A stretch of DNA of 64,000 nt from Paramecium tetraurelia (taxonomy: Eukaryota; Ciliophora; Oligohymenophorea; Peniculida; Parameciidae), in the NCBI RefSeq assembly GCF_000165425.1, contig NW_001799630.1:437734-501733 (forward strand). The letters are read 5' to 3'. The position numbers and the translations under genes were made by a program. The first letter of the stretch is position 1. Each line of letters starts with the position of its first letter. Below, in pieces: positions 31,097 through 41,967 of the stretch. Below the pieces are notes generated by a model. It did not search any database and had not been told where the DNA came from. It worked only from the letters and a program-made list of their open reading frames with translations.

Positions 31097-31990
31097 TTTA
31101 TAAATTTCAAAATAAATCTCCAAGTATTCTTTATTATTTTCACACTATTTTCTGATTCTCTTTAAAAAGTTGAAAGATTTTAAAAATAAATATTGTTTGT
31201 CTAAAATAATTCTTTTTTGATTTCCATAATCTTTTCTTTTATTATAATAACATTACTACAAAAATTAAAATTTCACTCTGGTTTTAGGTATATTAGTAAT
31301 ACTATCTAATTTAAAAAATAATGACTTTTTATTTCTGTTTGCATCTAATTTCTAAAAATCAAAAGGAATTAACTTTTAAAATAAAAAATCACAACAACCT
31401 AACAAATCTATAGATTTTATAAGAAGATTATAAGGAAAATCGAAGATATAGTATAAGTATTGTGAATAATATTAAATAAGATAATGGAGGTATTATAGAT
31501 GGAAAATTTGAAGGGCAAAAACAATTGATAAAATGGTGTTGTAATATATTATGGAAACTTTATGGATGGATCGAAATAAGGAAAAAAAAAAGAACTTATT
31601 ATCTACCTTTGTCATAATATTCTTTTATTTTAGATTTGAAGTAAAATTGTAAAAAGGTTGTTAAAGTGATATAAATATTTTCTTATTAGAGATTAATTAT
31701 TTAATATTTTGTAGAATAAATCAAATATCATACTTGAAATTTTTCTATTGAATGAAGCAATAATTTTAGAGTATTTGTAAGGGTGTTTTTAATTTTTCAA
31801 TTCACCTTAAACTTAATATTATTTTATTTTTAGTAATTATTTTATTGTAAATACTTTAATTCGTAAAGTAATAAAGTAATTAATATTTTCTGATGGATCA
31901 TCATTTGTAAAACATATAAAAAATGAATACACAATTTCAAGAACTTTAAATTATAAATTTATAGTAACTTAATCTATTTATAAGATAAAA
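31097..31990. pseudogene. Intergenic with a MORN-repeat relic on the plus strand
   Basis: About 0.9 kb with no intact gene. At roughly 31476-31600 the plus strand encodes two fragments of MORN-type repeats in different frames: DNGGIIDGKFEGQKQ, then after a one-base shift NGVVIYYGNFMDGSKQGKK. The G-x-Y/I-x-G-x-F-x-x-G-K spacing is that of MORN motifs. No start or further repeats are seen, so it looks like a decayed gene fragment. Confidence 0.4.
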
Positions 31991-32817
31991 ATGCTTAGTT
32001 TGATTAAGATGAAAGAATTTTCTATATCTTTTAGGAATAAATGCCAGGGGTGTTCTATATAGCAATATACAAAGAAGAAAGTTTGATAATGATGCTGCAG
32101 TGTAAGGTTATTATATTAAAATCAGATTTTATGCTGCCTAGGTTGTTCTTTTTCTTGAATATTTGCATTCAAACCGTATATTATATCGGAGTTTGAATTC
32201 ATAGCATTTAATGATTGGATCTGATGATTACCTAAGATAAATTGTTTTTATTTTACAGTATTACACGAAAGAAAAAGAACAGCTTCATCTATAGGGCATA
32301 TAGAGTATTCTGCTCCAGAAGTTTTAGATAATTTAGGTAAAATAATTATGTAACATAAGGACACACATTCTCCTCTGATTGGTGGTCATTGGGAGTGCTC
32401 ATTTTTGAAATGTTGGATAGACTGCGTCCTTTTGAGAGGGGTGAAGATGATCTTTTTGATCTTCTCAGAAAAATTCAATATGGATAATACAAAATGCATA
32501 ATTATTTTTCAAAGTAAATAATTAATTCCTTATCAAAAAATTTGATTTACAACTTGTTATAAGTTAAACCATGGGATAGGGTTGGAAATCTTAGAGGAGG
32601 AATAAATGATATCCAAAACCATATGGTTTAAGAATATTGATTGGAAAAATTAGTACAAAAACAAATGAATCCTCCATTTATACCAAATATTGAGTAAAGA
32701 ATTTATATATAACCAAGTGTAGGAGATATTTCTCATTATTTAAGATATAATGAAAGTGAAAAGTTACTTTTATCTGAACGACAAGTATGGGATCCTTTTG
32801 CAATATGTAATAGTTGA
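31991..32817 (+). pseudogene. Decayed AGC-type protein kinase gene
   Basis: The plus strand carries most of an AGC kinase catalytic lobe in pieces. Fragments in order: FYAAQVVLFLEYLHSNRILY, RSLNSQHLMIGSDDYLRQIV, SIGHIEYSAPEVL, FSSDWWSLGVLIFEMLDRLR, PWDRVGNLRGGINDIQNH and LVQKQMNPPFIPN. The HRD motif has become YRSLN and DFG is not recognisable. Frames shift before the APE region and again around 32630, where NIDW and EKL lie in different frames with TGA between. A 23-nt intron is still recognisable within GTAAAA...CATAAG (about 32338-32360). The N-lobe cannot be reconstructed. Multiple lesions plus loss of catalytic residues indicate a pseudogene, perhaps from a whole-genome-duplication copy. 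Confidence 0.72.
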
Positions 32818-33488
32818 AATATTCTAAATAAACAAAAATCAAGATATAAAATAATTATTAATTCTTCTTACTAATGAATAATAATTCTTGAATGTACTAA
32901 TCGATTTTGTATAAGTCAGTCATAATAGTTTATCAATTTATCCTAGTGTAATTTTAAGAAAAAAATGATTAAAAATTTAGTAGATAATTTTTGAATTTTA
33001 ATAGAATATTTGGAAACTCTAATTAAAACAATTATAATTATTCTTAATATATTTGAATTAAATTTTTAATAATCATGAATTCAATTTACTAGTCATACCA
33101 TATAAAGACATAGAAAAGTTCACCCATAATAACTGGATAAGTGAATAAATTTAGTATAATTATATGCCTTGTTGATGTTAAAATGAAAAACTTCAAATTC
33201 CAATCAAGAGCCTGGTAAGAATAATTTGGTATATTTGGTTTTCTTATACAAGATTTGATATTCATTTTCTTATACAAATTAAACCTCTTTATTCAACATC
33301 TCTTGGCAAGTCTAATAGTAAATGCGTTAAAGAATTTTTATGATAAGGACAAAAAAAAATCTTAATTTATTTATTAATAAATAATAAAAGGATATTGATA
33401 TTTATTTAATCTATTTATTTCCAAGATAAATAAACAGCATAAATAAGATCGAAAGTCTTGTAAAATATATTAATAAAATATTGTAGAA
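32818..33488. other. Intergenic, AT-rich
   Basis: About 670 bp between the kinase relic and the PiggyBac-like gene. No domain, RNA gene or repeat seen. The promoter of the PiggyBac-like gene should lie in its last 100 bp. Confidence 0.4.
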
Positions 33489-35700
33489 ATGAAACAGGAA
33501 GCTCTGAGCAATTCAGTAGCTTAGATAAGTGGAAATTCTTAATCAACTCAAATGCTAGAAGAGATAGAAAAATATAATTGTTATTGGAAATAGGAAATTA
33601 TTTTGAGTGATTGTGAAGAATAGTTTATTCAAATTGCATCTGATGATGAAAGAGATTGTGCTGCGACAATAAACTTTGGAAAAGCTGTTAATATTTAATA
33701 AGCGGATATTAATTAAATAACAGAGATCTTAAACTATTTAGATACGCCATAGCTAAAGATGACTTCTTTATAGAGTCCTTAAAATGTTTTGAACTATTTT
33801 TTGCCAAGTAGTTTTGTATCTACACTTACGGAGATGATCAATCATTATCTTTTAACGGTGTTATAGGAGGATCTAAAACAATAACAATAATAAACGCAAT
33901 AAATTTATCACAAGAAGAAATATAAAGAAGCTGAGATTTAATTTTATTTAGGGTTACAAATTTTATTTGGAGTTTATAGATTTCCATAATTGGATGATTA
34001 TTGGAATGCTGAGTCTTGGTTAAGAGGAGGAGTAGAAGTTACAATGCCAATAGGTAGATTTAAGTTTGTGGATCTTCATATTTTTTCATATTTTGATGAA
34101 GTATAAAGAGCAAAGTTATAATTGGAAGTTAGAAAGTTTTCTAAGAAATTAAAAGCACTTTATAATCCTGATTAAGAGTTAATAGTGGTAGAGTAAAATC
34201 AAAAAGCATACAATGCATACTACATTTTTGACTATGATAGCTCTTAAATTATAGATTTATTGGTAGTGTGCAACAATGTGAAAAATGAAGACAGAATTAA
34301 TAGAGTAATGAGGATGCTCTACAAGTATTCAAATCAAAATCATGTTACATACATAATGTTCTATCTGAGTTTGGAAAGGATAATTCAATTAGTGGATTAA
34401 TCCATATTTCCAGTTATTCGTTACAAGAACATAACTCATAATTTAATTCAAATGCTCCAGGACGGAGACTACCAGCTGGATTAATTATTTTTAGTTAAAT
34501 AAGGCACTTAAGTGGATGTTTTCCCTTAAAGACGCCTGATATCAAGTAGACATTATATGACTTCCTATGAAAAAATCTAAGAGTAATTGCAAGAACATAT
34601 AATAAATCTTTAGCAATTTCGAAGTAACTTTTATTAATCGTCGTAATTAAATAATACTGAGAGTTTCCATTAACTAAGAATTGAATTTGAGGAATATTTC
34701 GAAATTATGATTCATAATACCTTCTTACTAATTCAACAAACATCTCCATCTTAATACAGACATGATCTAGCTAAAGTTCTTCTGAATGAAAAGGGATAAC
34801 AGATTGAGAGAGATCGTAATGAAGCCAAACGAAAACTAAATGTCACATACAAAGAAAATTCCTCGAATACAGATCATTTGTCCTTTGGATTGTAAAGACA
34901 GTATGCCGATCAATTTCATACACCAATACCTTAAAAACAAGAAGATACCTTCAAATATTGTTTAGTTTGTATGAAATTTGAAGGTTTGACCAAACCATAT
35001 TATAGATGTCAATTATGTGAAAAAATATTGAATGTAAATAAGATTTTTTTATGTCCTTTTCCTTGTTTTGAATTATTTCATAAGAATCCAAGCGATTTCG
35101 TGGATTGCGATATGAAAATGCTTGAACCCCTTGGAGATGGAGTATATTTTAAGAATGAATCCACTATGCAACTAGTTAGTAATGGATAAGAAGAAGATGC
35201 TAGTGGGAAAAAAAGAAAATATAATAAACCTCCACCTAGAACCTATTGGTCATTCAATAAAGAGATTTATAGATAAGCAAATATCAATGATGATCAAAAT
35301 TTGAATGACATCTTAAATACTTTTAAAAAACCCTAAGCAACCTGCTCCTTCACCTAATTTGCTATAGCCTATTGTCCCTTAAATAAAATAGTAATAGAAA
35401 TCAACTTTGGGGCACAAAAAGGATATGAAAGATATTGATTATCTTTTAAATTAAGAAAAAGAGTAAAAGGATAAGTTAATGAAGGAAATGTAGGAAAGGG
35501 ACAAATAATTACAAGAACAATACTTTTAATAGCAATATGAGAAATAATTGTAAAGAGAATTGGAAACAAAAAAGAGCAAAAAGGCCCAAAAGGAAAGTGA
35601 AAAGAAGAAACAGTTAGAAGAACAACTAAAGAACGTTAGTCCTCTTGAGAAGTTCATGGAACAAATAAATAGGAGAGCTAAGGTAGAGGATGTTGAATGA
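33489..35700 (+). CDS. Domesticated PiggyBac transposase-like protein (PiggyMac-like, PgmL-type)
   Basis: ATG at 33489, TGA at 35698-35700, about 737 residues, no intron. Residues 140-200 match the start of the PiggyBac transposase domain: EIQFYLGLQILFGVYRFPQL, DDYWNAESWLRGG and MPIGRFKFVDLHIFSYFDE. A cysteine-rich domain typical of PiggyBac C-termini lies near residues 490-535: YCLVCMKFEG, YYRCQLCEK, FLCPFPCFELFHKNP. A Lys/Glu coiled-coil tail follows (KDKLMKEMQERDKQLQEQ). The usual first catalytic Asp region (VDE...) reads LIVVEQNQKAYNAY and the second (DNxF) reads IMFYLSLERI, so the catalytic triad looks lost. In Paramecium, PiggyMac cuts internal eliminated sequences and needs PgmL partners without catalytic residues; this gene fits that class. 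A one-base surplus in AAAAAACCC at 35325-35333 must be removed to connect the coiled-coil tail. No terminal inverted repeats were seen. Confidence 0.82.
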
Positions 35701-35780
35701 TATTTTATTGGCAATTATTGATATATATATAATTAGCATTAGTTTATTTAAGAAATACTGAATTTTTGTATATAATATTA

Positions 35781-36101
35781 TCATCTATTGTAGAATAGAC
35801 CTCCATAATTCCTAGAATATCCATTAGTAGTGCTTTTGCTATGATAATCATTCAAAACATAATTGCTTTTTTTTAATCCTGATTAAACAGCTACGGTAGG
35901 GTCGTATTATTTCAATACTCCTAATTCTTTTAATTTATAGACATTTTATTCGAGTAGTTTATTGTTTATGATCAAATTTGCGTCTTCTAAGATTGAATCT
36001 AATATGTCTCCTTATTTCCTGTTTAAATAGCTTCTACTAGATTGATTCTCAACAATCAAGGTATCTTTTAACTTCTTGAATGCAGGATTTGAATTGGCCA
36101 T
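35781..36101 (-). CDS. Small protein of unknown function
   Basis: ATG at 36101, TGA at 35781-35783, 106 residues in a single frame. Sequence features: MANSNPAFKKLKDTLIVENQ, SSRSYLNRKQGDILDSILED, a short helical stretch NNKLLEQNVYKLKELGVLKQ and a Tyr/Asn/Gly-rich end (GYSRNYGGLFYNR). It looks like a small cytosolic adaptor. It begins 79 bp after the stop of the K+ channel gene on the same strand. No family recognised. Confidence 0.65.
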
Positions 36102-36179
36102 AGAACAAGACCTTCGATTATTTATTTATAAATAAGGCAGTTTCTCTTAGGAAGATTACATTAAATTAATTATTCAAAA

Positions 36180-38828
36180 TCATTTCGCTGAAATTGGTTT
36201 AAAATATAATGCAGTTGCCCTCTTTTTTTTCTTATGGTTTTCGGCCTCCTTCTACGGACTTATTATTTGATTATCTCTAAGGATATATTGGCGGTATTTC
36301 CTTGATATTTATTATAAAATTATTACTTTATAAATTCATAAGGAAATGTTAGAAAGAGACTTAATTACTTCCACTATTCAAAGAATTTTAAGTTTATTTT
36401 TGTGGTTTTGAATAGCCAGGCCGAATTGAATTGTGGATAATAATACTTGAAATTCTTAATACAATCTATTTCTAAATTAGCTCTTTAATTCAATTTTAAC
36501 CTTAAGTCTCCTAATAATATTTTATCACTTTCTCTCAAATTATCATCATCAAATTCTCTAAGAGTGTGTAGTTCCAATGGCTAATTAATCTAGTTTGGAT
36601 GATGTAATTTTTATCGTATTTACTTGATATTTAAGGCTTACCTATTAGAAAATTATTTTTTTGTCATGTTTTGCATTTATTAAAAGTAATTTGAATGAGT
36701 AGCTTTCCATGATTCTTTCATTTCGAATTCAGAAGAATCTGATGATTCTATTGTTGGAATAGTCAACTAAATCTTATCCAAATTATCATTTTATTTAAGT
36801 TCTTTAAAAACAGCTCTTCTTTTTCTTTCATGCTTTCTTTTATAAAACTTTCTATTTTATTATTAAGGATATTGATGTTTCTTGATGACTGCATCTTTGT
36901 CTGGATTAAATGTGAGCAAAGGACATTATTAAATAGTATGTTAAAGACTTTTACAGGAGTAGCAATCCATGCCAAAATATGATTTGTTAAAGATAAGTTA
37001 TTCTTTCAATTAACAATATTATTCATGATCTTCTGAGTATTGTGAAAGTACTTTCATAAAGTCTTTTTTAGTGATGAAAACCAATTTACTGAATGCAACA
37101 GACGTATACCTTAATGATGGAATATCATCAAACATAAACTCTCTTAATCCAAAGTTATCACCTGCCTAGAGGGTGGCTAATCTGAGTCTATTATTTCTAA
37201 AATATGTTCCTATAGATCCTCTTTCTATGAAGAACAAACAAGGTTAATCAAATGGAACAGTTTTACAAGGAGTAAGTGTTATTGATTAAACGTGCTTCAA
37301 ACATTCGGCTTTAAATTCATGAGAAAAGTAGTCATTAAATAATTTACAACCTTTGACTATTATAGAGTTGGCCTCAAAGATGAGGTTTTCTTAAAGATCT
37401 TGAGATAATTAACCTATTATATCCTTAACTTCTAAGTTTTCCTCCAATTTTTGTTCTTTCCAATAAAATGTTAAATATTCTCTTATTTCATATTTGAGTT
37501 GATTAGAAATATTCACACTCTTCATATAAGTATTAATGGCTCTCATTTTGCGAATGTGATCCTCACTTTTTTCATTCAATTTCGAATAAACATTCCAGAT
37601 TGCTGACACTGTATATGACAATTGTAAAGTTGAGCAAACCATAAATCCTATGGTCACTAATCTTTCGTAGATATCTAATAAGATTTGTAAATTATTTACT
37701 TTTTGGAACAACATCTCCGTATCCTACAGTAAACATAGTAACTGATGAAAAATAAAATGCTGTGATATATTAATCAGTGTAGGGGGCATCAGTCAATCCA
37801 TTCGACTTTATCCATGAATCTTAAGCAATTTCTTAAATTCCAACAAAATACCATATGCAACTAAATAAATGTTCCAGTAAGAAGAGAAACATCACAAGTT
37901 TAATCTATATTAAATTATTTGTTTACCAGATCTAATAGTAATGAAGTAGTCTCTGAATAATCCTAGCTGTTTTATAGTCTCTAAAAGACTCGAATTATAT
38001 TTTATAATTAGATAATGATTCCTAAAATACTAATCACACTCCTCACATAGTTATACTCTCGAAGTGACTAGTTTTTATAATCGATATAATTGTTTTATTC
38101 ACTTATTTCTTGTGCAAGAACTAGAACTAATGTCACAACACAAAAAATATCATATATGAAACCATTCCTTATGTAATTACGAGCTACTTTATAATGATTC
38201 GTTATTAAATATCCTTTCTCATAAAAAGATGTGATAAAGTTCAATAAAATATCAAAGATCAATAAAGATGTGGACACCTGCAATGTCCATAAGAGTTAAT
38301 TGTAAAGCAGTTTGTTATTGAAAGCTGTCTCATACGGTATAGCAAACAAAAGGTAGAATCTGATAAATGCAAGAAAGATATCCCATATTAATTTGAATTC
38401 ATTGTTTGGATTGATTATTGGAATCAGTTTAATTGATTTAGTTATTTTCTAAGCAATTTTTGATTTCTTAATTTCTCTCCATTTTCTGGTCAATTTTCTC
38501 TTCAATCTGGCGAATTTAGATTTGTTTACTTTTCCCCAAACTTGTCCAGTTTTCTATGACACTTTTCAAAATAATCATAATATTTCATACTAATAATATT
38601 CTTTTCGAGAAACATCTTTTATGATGTGATAATGAATTGGAGCAAGTTATTGATATTGTTTCTTGTTTTGAATGGCTTTATTCTTCATCCTAAATCCATA
38701 AAACTTAGCTCTCATTGATTAAAAAGCACTATGAATTTAACAAAGAAATCATACTTTCCACTAGTATTGACTTATTTAGTTAGTAATAGTTTATCTTCAA
38801 TTTTATAGGCCTCACTTTAGTCTAACAT
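36180..38828 (-). CDS. Voltage-type K+ channel with C-linker and cyclic-nucleotide-binding-like domain
   Basis: TGA at 36180-36182; start taken at ATG 38828 (MLDQSEAYKIEDKLLLTK). About 850 residues. Introns: 37675-37699 (25 nt), 36301-36326 (26 nt) and one of 26 nt near 38735. Transmembrane part: IWDIFLAFIRFYLLFAIPYE (S1), STSLLIFDILLNFITSF, IYDIFCVVTLVLVLAQEI. The pore is TAFYFSSVTMFTVGYGDVVP with the K+ filter TVGYGD. The C-linker includes IRKMRAINTYMKSVNISNQL and REYLTFYWKEQKLEEN. The CNBD-like part has GCKLFNDYFSHEFKAECLK and LQAGDNFGLREFMFDDIPS. The tail is basic and Gln-rich. This is the EAG/HCN-type family that is highly expanded in ciliates and sets membrane potential and swimming behaviour. 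The phosphate-cassette FGE reads FGL, so nucleotide binding is doubtful. Around 38560 the exon junction is not fully resolved. Confidence 0.86.
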
Positions 38829-38887: not shown

Positions 38888-39798
38888 TCATTGCAATAGC
38901 CAATCAACTCTTAATGGAGACTTTAAACATTTTTAAGTACCTTTTAATGTGTACAATTCTGATCTTCCATCCCTTCCTTTCATATAAAATTCAACTATGT
39001 AATTTTCATCAGCCCTAATTGATAAAATATCTAAGTATAATTATGCTTTTGGAATATTCCTTTAGTGTCCACAAAGTTATAAAGATTCTCCCTGAAATTA
39101 GCATTTACTATATACAGTGATACAGGCTATATAATTGCTAATAAGTACCTCTATATTCATATCTATTGTCATATTTATAAGCACTTCTATAAAAATCTCT
39201 TTGTCTTGGTTCTGTTCTTTTTATTGAAGAAGAACCATACTAATTATCTGCATTACAATTATCTGGACTGTAGTTTGATGATTTTGCATCACATGGATCT
39301 GAATAAATACTTAAATAATATAATTTATTTTACTATAATTTGCTGATTACTTCTCTTAAGAACCTTCCTAACTCTTAATCGTTTGGGTTTTTTGGTATTG
39401 TCACACTCTAGCCTGTCAATGGAGGTCCTCTTCTACCGCTATGTCTTCCAGAATAATCATCTTCTCTCCCATGATGTTAATCTCTTCTACCATAGTCTTT
39501 CTGATAATATCCTGTATTTAAATATCTAACTCCCTCCTTTTAAAATTGCTGATTTTAGGAATCACTTTTCTCTTGTTGATGATATTGCTCTTCATTTCGA
39601 ACTTAAAGTTTTTATTAAATCTCTTCTTTCAAGATTTCTGCATCAATTTTTTATAATTATTATTATTTTCTAAAATTTTAAGACTCTTGAGCATTTGACT
39701 ATTATTTTTATACATTTTATTTGCTTTATTAAATTTCTTTTTATCTTTCCTCTTAATCTAGTTATTCTTTTTTACTCGAATAAATTTATTTTGGTTAA

Positions 39799-39876
<78 letters not shown>

Positions 39877-41967
39877 TATTAGTACAACTATTGTTATTAC
39901 TATTACTACTATTATTATTATTACAACTATTATTACTATTACAATTATTATTATTATTAATGCTATTACAATTTTTATACTTAATCTTATGATTTTTCAT
40001 AATCCTATTCTTCTTTTTAAATTGGCTACTAAATTATTGAATTTTATTTTTCTGTTTCATCCATATTTTATTAAGGTTACGGGTGACTATCTTCTGGCAT
40101 CAAAAAGGCCTCGCTAACAGATCCTGGTTATTCCTAATTAATTTCGTCATCTTTTTGAATATTTTCATCTTCGTCTGTAGAATATTCTAAATCATCTTAG
40201 TCAAATTAATCCTCTTCAACTTTTTGAATCAACTCAGTTGGCTACTTTAATCTTTTATGTATTTCTTTATACTGTATAGGTTTAACATCATAATATTTTT
40301 GTTGAGCTTCACAATGATCTTAAACTATATTTATTATTAGTAATAATTTACTCTAATCCAATATAAATGTCTTTTAAATATGATCTATGAATTCTCGAAA
40401 CAGTTACAAACATTACATGTCTGTAAATTCATTTTAAGAAGTAAATACCAGAACATAAGTTCTTCCAATAATATTCTAAATTTAATGAGAATCTAAAGTA
40501 TATAGGATAAACTTACAAACATTATCATTAATACTGTAAAAGGCTTCTAAATTTTCATTCTGTTCATTAATTATTAAAGAGTTAATGCTTTATTGTTTAT
40601 AAGTAATTCTTAGATATGACCCAATATACCCACCATGATTCATTTCTCTATTATTAATTTCAGAAGTAAATAACACTGTAAAATCATTCTAAACAACTGC
40701 TGTATTATCAAACATTTCAACGAATGGAGTATCCTAAAATTATTCATTAGATTTGAATTTAATTATTTAATCAGATTGCAATTGAAATGGCAATTATTTA
40801 AAAAAGTCTAATGAAACATCAGAACATTGCTGTTGAGGATTTTCACAGACGTTGTTTCTCTGGTGAATGATAAATATGCAATCTTAAAATACATGTTCAA
40901 TCAAATCACTTGAAGGAAATTTAGCAAACTATGAAGTAACAAATGAAAAAACAAAGACTTTTGAATCAGTCATACCAATAGTTATATAAGCCAAGTTGTC
41001 ATCTTCTTTGTAATTGATTACAATCCCATCCTCGCTTTCAAAAATTAGAATATGAATAAATCCTCTATTTTCTTATTAAAGAGTCACGATTAATCCACTT
41101 TGAGGATAATCAATAGTTTATTGGTGAGTTTCCATATTTTAAATAGGTATTCTCAACTCAAGGACTTTGTTATTCAAATTTTATGCTACAAAAACTTGAA
41201 GCCCAGGGTAGTTTTTCGTAAAATACTCATTATCCAAAGTTCCATTAATTATCTAATTGCCCAAATGATAATGTATAGGAGGATGATATAGGTCAGGCGT
41301 TTGAAAAGTTAAGCGTTCAAAATTATTATCCAAATTACATTTGATTTATTCTAACGAAATTGATGCGACCTTTTATTAGCAATATTCCTGGTCTTCTGAT
41401 TGACTGATGAAATGTACGAACCGCTTTAAAATCAACATAGCATCCCCTTTACCTCCCCATGATACTATATATATAAAGCCCATTTTCTCGAATTTATCTA
41501 CAGCATCCGTTTTACCAAAAGAAAATTCTCTCACCAAATTTTCTTTAGATATTAGCAAATGTCCTCCATCCTCTTCCTTATCAACAAAATATCCATTATA
41601 ACCATTATAGAGGTGAACAGAAGCAGTGGTTCTATTCTACTTTACTTTGAACTCCTAAATTGATAACCATTAAATTTCGCTAGCATCGCCTGCGAAGATG
41701 TAAGCATCAGTAAATCCCACCAAGAAATATGAGTTATTGCTTAAACTTGGTGAAGACTTATAACTTTATTAGATATCCAATGCGAAATGAGGTGATTGGC
41801 TAGTTAGTATATAAGGCATCGTACTCAGCAATTAAATAAACTTATTACTTCTAATTCTATTAATCAATCAAAAAGAATGTTTATTCTTCATAAAATAGGC
41901 GCAGTCCGCACAAAAAGTTCTCTGCATTTAACGAGTAAATAGCTTAGATTAAAAAAATTATAAACAT
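38888..41967 (-). CDS. Secreted or surface protein with a long polyglutamine tract
   Basis: ATG at 41967, TGA at 38888-38890, about 1,010 residues; introns 41824-41848 (25 nt) and 39127-39148 (22 nt). The N-terminus MFIIFLIQAIYSLNAENF is a signal peptide. Residues about 30-570 are a beta-rich ectodomain-like region (SNNSYFLVGFTDAYIFAGDA, FIYIVSWGGKGDAMLILKR). An acidic linker precedes a polyglutamine tract read from the (ATT)n repeat at 39799-39965, where each TAA/TAG is Gln. After it come a charged Gln/Glu/Lys segment, a Gly/Arg/Tyr-rich part (YYQKDYGRRDQHHG) and a short C-terminal domain with paired cysteines (CITVYSKCQFQGESLQLCG). The frame is continuous across the repeat. Function unknown. 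The stop lies 59 bp before the channel start. Confidence 0.75.
39799..39965. repeat. (ATT)n microsatellite inside a coding region
   Basis: About 24 pure ATT units (39799-39871) followed by about 95 bp of imperfect ATT/ACT/ATC units. On the minus strand, in the frame of the surrounding gene, it reads TAA/TAG/CAA/TTG and encodes mostly glutamine. The plus-strand Ile-rich and the other minus-strand Asn-rich frames are shadows. Confidence 0.92.

Follow-up and report, generated by a model that had tools for sequence, protein, structure and literature searches.

The excision of internal eliminated sequences (IESs) in Paramecium is carried out by PiggyMac (Pgm), a domesticated transposase of piggyBac origin that has a Cys-rich domain and a C-terminal extension (PMC8086355), together with the PgmL proteins, whose set in P. 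tetraurelia has been published as PGML1, 2, 3a/b/c, 4a/b and 5a/b on the basis of a PF13843 search of predicted proteins (PMC6143343). The PGML genes have been reported to be induced during autogamy, tagged PgmL3a to be seen in the developing macronucleus, and the PgmLs to co-precipitate with Pgm; the PGML knock-downs inhibit excision for between 83% and 100% of IESs (PMC6143343). According to the same source, no phenotype follows the knock-down of PGML3b alone, 30% of the progeny are viable after that of PGML3a alone, and none after that of both together; the residual excision without PgmL1 or PgmL3 is biased towards errors that use TAs displaced by 10 bp, and it is from these errors that the authors propose that PgmL1 and PgmL3 help to place the cuts (PMC6143343). 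PGML3 is an example, already studied, of a transposase that has become a structural protein of its host. The subject of the present analysis is a gene at 33489..35700 on the plus strand of a 64,000-nucleotide stretch of P. tetraurelia DNA (contig NW_001799630.1, positions 437,734 to 501,733), called here the window, and this gene is, with very high probability, PGML3a or PGML3b, the inactive piggyBac-derived partner of Pgm, with a one-base frame difference before its tail that is best read as an error of the assembly. The gene is thus a known one, PgmL3 having already been described as needed for IES excision. Autogamy expression, Pgm binding and IES retention after knock-down are taken throughout from the publications, and the identity, triad loss, fold, duplications and constraint come from this analysis.

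The gene was translated with TAA and TAG as Gln, and its features are the following.

33489..35700, plus strand: PGML3a or PGML3b gene (probable identity), core and tail
33489..35438, plus strand: core open frame as assembled, 649 residues; homology extends to about 35339, and the last 33 residues are an out-of-frame reading
33774..34193, plus strand: match to DDE_Tnp_1_7 (PF13843), residues 96-235
34179..34196, plus strand: LIVVEQ, predicted first ribonuclease H (RNase H) strand, without Asp
34350..34373, plus strand: YIMFYLSL, end of the predicted fourth strand and beyond, without Asp
34647..34676, plus strand: LNNTESFHQL, expected place of the third triad residue, without Asp
34959..35102, plus strand: PgmL-type Cys-rich domain, residues 491-538
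35331..35343, plus strand: stretch with the one-base length difference from the C2 copy and from the P. pentaurelia protein P0003
35341..35700, plus strand: Lys/Glu/Gln-rich C-terminal extension in the next frame, with the stop codon TGA at 35698-35700

A single frame is open from the ATG at 33489 through the core, and the PiggyBac derivation, which had been proposed in a sequence-only reading of the same letters, is borne out by the Pfam profile PF13843 (45.5 bits, E 8.3e-12, cut-off 22.4). The C-terminal Cys-rich domain named in that reading is likewise present, from its first Cys at residue 491 to the closing motif PCFELFH, and its Cys/His order recurs, in the alignment, in other PgmL-like proteins of the genome, though the Pfam profile zf-Tnp_2 gives the window protein 15.4 bits, below its cut-off of 24. 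The PF13843 match begins at residue 96, which bears on the length of the N-terminal part; the layout published for PgmL3 alone combines a C-terminal extension, rich in coiled coil, with the lack of a long N-terminal one (PMC6143343), and the window gene may follow it, with an extension that is present but out of frame. Lys, Glu and Gln abound in the extension of the window gene, and a crude home-made heptad test gave no clear sign of a coiled coil, the observed value being reached by 66 of 300 shuffles for the window tail, by 18 of 300 for the C2 tail and by 162 of 300 for the C108 tail. The tail of the sequence-only reading is present as an extension at this place, but not in frame with the core.

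The piggyBac transposase of Trichoplusia ni requires D268, D346 and D447 (PMC2533014), and the equivalents of all three are lost in the window protein, whereas Pgm retains the DDD triad and cuts. In the predicted model, VVEQ lies within the first RNase H strand (residues 230-237) and IMFYLSL starts at the end of the fourth (285-290), with no Asp in either, in agreement with the earlier placing of these motifs at the first and second catalytic positions; the stretch expected to hold the third Asp (378-394) is also without one and offers E391 only. Both E235 and E391 are retained in all eight PgmL3 rows of the alignment. The best match of the predicted core in the Protein Data Bank (PDB) was piggyBac itself (Foldseek, 6x67_C, E 1.2e-7), with which the core aligns. 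The PDB search with the sequence of the window protein matched piggyBat weakly (E 0.039), and three other PDB sequence queries gave nothing useful, the published Pgm zinc-finger structure not being among their matches. The window protein is thus, as far as the model goes, a domesticated piggyBac transposase with its active site gone and a predicted RNase H-like core. The outcomes that might have spoken against a degenerate PgmL and could be computed did not occur, since PF13843 was matched and a complete DDD triad was absent. As a separate observation, residue 292 (34362-34364), just past the fourth predicted strand, is Tyr in the window copy and Asp or Glu in the seven other PgmL3 rows.

The assignment to PGML3 follows from the gene family. 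The PF13843 profile search of the genome gave eight loci (eight matches among nine candidates), to which a protein search added the one on C175, and the resulting nine PgmL-like loci comprise the singles on C14 and C164, the triple on C211 (the window), C2 and C108, and the pairs C160 with C175 and C179 with C186. Because this pattern of 1+1+3+2+2 is that of the published PGML set, the window gene, as a member of the triple, was assigned to PGML3; the assignment of loci to names is our own. The C2 copy is 81% and the C108 copy 50% identical to the window protein, and the frames of the window at 27-42 kb are collinear with 601.6-627.8 kb of C2, some of them also matching C108, from which the window gene should be PGML3a or PGML3b and the C108 gene PGML3c. 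In a tree of ten proteins, a check which the sequence-only reading had suggested, the window and C2 copies join P0003 of P. pentaurelia and P0004 of P. sonneborni (fork drawn open, 92/96), and the C108 copy groups with an octaurelia, a primaurelia and a second sonneborni protein (97/99). Of the two possibilities left open by that reading, one of the PgmL proteins or a new member, the former thus holds, in the person of PgmL3, by the membership of the triple and by the copies, and a new member is unsupported.

Compared with the described proteins, the window gene shares with PgmL3a and PgmL3b the species, a trio derived from the same two duplications, the absence of the triad Asp residues, the Cys-rich domain and possibly the layout of extensions (PMC6143343), and differs in that a one-base shift puts its tail out of frame in the present assembly. 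PgmL3c, with neighbours partly collinear, differs as an older duplicate on a separate branch of the tree, and its knock-down has been reported to have no phenotype (PMC6143343). The sizes of two other loci may be compared with the published ones, the smallest PgmL having 578 residues and another 1,085 residues with D619 (PMC6143343): the C14 protein has 578 residues from its first Met, equal to the former, and the C160 gene gives 1,085 residues and D619 only with the second Met and one of three candidate introns, both of which were chosen, and it therefore weighs less than the C14 agreement. PGM itself did not come up in the PF13843 search of the genome or with a PgmL2-like query or the window Cys-rich query; since PGM has been published for P. 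tetraurelia, this is put down to limits of the searching or of the sequence stored and not to absence of the gene. One weak match, at C211:319513-319734, was dropped, as its translation is unlike the query.

The interruption between core and tail admits several explanations. Relative to the C2 copy, which is open across the site (735 residues), the window carries an additional base near 35331-35343, and P0003 also reads uninterrupted there; as assembled, the frame of the core stops at 35438 and does not include the tail. Taken literally, this would point to a recent loss of the C-terminal extension from this PGML3 copy, which would either yield a protein lacking the tail or have begun to decay, with the intact C2 copy covering for it, a reading that suits the published redundancy of the two copies upon knock-down. 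It is also the reading favoured by P. sonneborni P0004, which seems to end in an out-of-frame tail as well, at another place than the window, and so weighs against a simple error; this end may itself be an error or may reflect a tendency to lose the tail. However, the tail past the site is constrained like the core, with a ratio of nonsynonymous to synonymous substitutions (dN/dS) against C2 of 0.044 for the tail and 0.039 for the core (synonymous divergence, dS, 1.14 and 1.24, respectively), and the window copy has not evolved faster than C2, the relative-rate counts with six outgroups giving 15-24 unique residues for the former and 15-30 for the latter. In addition, the polishing of the Sanger assembly of P. 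tetraurelia removed 10,339 insertions of 1-2 nucleotides and filled 929 deletions (Arnaiz et al. 2012, PMC3464196); the removed insertions correspond to about one per 7 kb, so that about 0.3 would be expected in a gene of this length, and the genome used here is presumably the unpolished version. A real frame difference is accordingly considered improbable. Because tail and core are similarly constrained and insertions of 1-2 nucleotides were so frequent in the Sanger assembly, the one-base difference is most likely an error of the assembly, and the living gene presumably makes the whole protein. The frame-breaking insertions and deletions of four other window genes relative to C2 mix divergence with possible errors, and no rate was drawn from them. 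A short intron joining core and tail was also tried, one of eight GT..AG candidates (18-36 bases, within 35180-35470) restoring the frame, in that removal of 31 bases at 35391 yields a single open frame of 726 residues. Nevertheless, about 20 residues would be left in the wrong frame and part of a stretch conserved with C2 and P0003 would be lost, the C2 copy needs no intron at that place, and the candidate ends in AAG, which is unusual for introns of Paramecium; disturbing the conserved stretch, it was ranked below the assembly error and is very unlikely.

A piggyBac element that is, or was until recently, mobile would account for the PF13843 match, but not for the loss of the triad Asp residues, the collinear duplicates, the dN/dS of 0.04 or the presence of relatives in four further P. 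aurelia species. Unlike the T. ni element, the gene has no recognisable element ends: 53 inverted pairs were found in 32700-36500, and among the 25 longest none was element-like in flanking the gene, all being judged AT-rich chance matches, although short ends below the reach of the scan are possible. This agrees with the lack of terminal repeats noticed from the letters, and a mobile element was rejected as extremely improbable. As to constraint in the family, dN/dS values of 0.02 to 0.11 have been published for the piggyBac orthologs of P. tetraurelia and P. octaurelia (PMC9942806).

With the identity of the window gene as PGML3a or PGML3b and the assembly error as the preferred readings, the published explanation of its role is adopted, and the sequence appears to hold nothing contradicting it. 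In this published explanation, PgmL3 serves the cutting subunit Pgm as a structural partner: located in the new macronucleus, it binds Pgm and retains it there, and it helps to set the cuts at the correct TA of each IES. The gene had thus been recognised rightly as a PgmL from the letters, with the reservation that its tail is not in frame as assembled. Since the assembly shows the PGML3 copy broken at the tail, although selection acts on the tail just as on the core, automated annotation based on this assembly is likely wrong.

The neighbourhood of the gene shows two further differences from C2. The collinearity is broken just upstream of the gene, where about 13 kb on C2 stand against about 2 kb in the window; the C2 block (605200-618000) is about 11 kb longer than 31300-33200 of the window, in which it has no matching frames. 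On the minus strand of the window, 39012-41867 is one open frame of 952 residues, and its counterpart on C2 carries many insertions and deletions and is broken into several frames, which may mean either that one copy is decaying or that there are errors on C2.

Beyond the window, the profile zf-Tnp_2 matched one of six candidates, on C10 (27.4 bits, cut-off 24), and this match served as the entry point to a family of short proteins, which is judged to matter more than the window gene. The members found are as follows.

C10:139553-140776, plus strand: short protein with a C-terminal PgmL-type Cys-rich domain
C64:106515-107642, minus strand: short protein with a C-terminal PgmL-type Cys-rich domain
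C229:148572-149676, minus strand: short protein with a C-terminal PgmL-type Cys-rich domain
C2:176792-176920, plus strand: one of a pair that has diverged further, its Cys-rich domain being similar
C211:105948-106115, plus strand: the other of this pair, its Cys-rich domain likewise similar

The database proteins of the C10, C64 and C229 genes have 346, 358 and 369 residues, and the two introns proposed for the C10 gene agree with its database protein P0021. No PF13843 match was found in the C10, C64 and C229 parts of the family, so that the published PF13843-based search (PMC6143343) would miss it. No title or abstract describing the family was found among the papers listed in the literature search, supplements and subscription papers being outside its scope; UniRef names starting 'PiggyBac transposable el' are already attached to three P. 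tetraurelia records of the family. The structural model of a short protein (mean predicted local distance difference test score, pLDDT, 50.3) has an RNase H-like strand order; its closest matches in the fold search were mostly Argonaute cores, with piggyBac absent among the matches listed, and no triad was recognised in the N-terminal part. The relation to the PgmLs is firm for the Cys-rich domain only. It is possible, and put forward tentatively, that these short proteins (at least three paralogs of about 346-370 residues, on C10, C64 and C229, with the C2/C211 pair) form an undescribed PgmL-like group of additional inactive elimination subunits; if they are indeed part of the excision machinery, the published list of subunits is incomplete. 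The alignment-based search with the short family gave 14 clusters confined to five species of the P. aurelia complex, and conservation is higher over the C-terminal 61-62 residues than over the remainder in all three tetraurelia/octaurelia pairs compared (identities of 53/62 vs 211/293, 49/61 vs 221/295 and 58/61 vs 253/285). The divergent C2/C211 pair, for its part, sits downstream of a potassium-channel-like gene.
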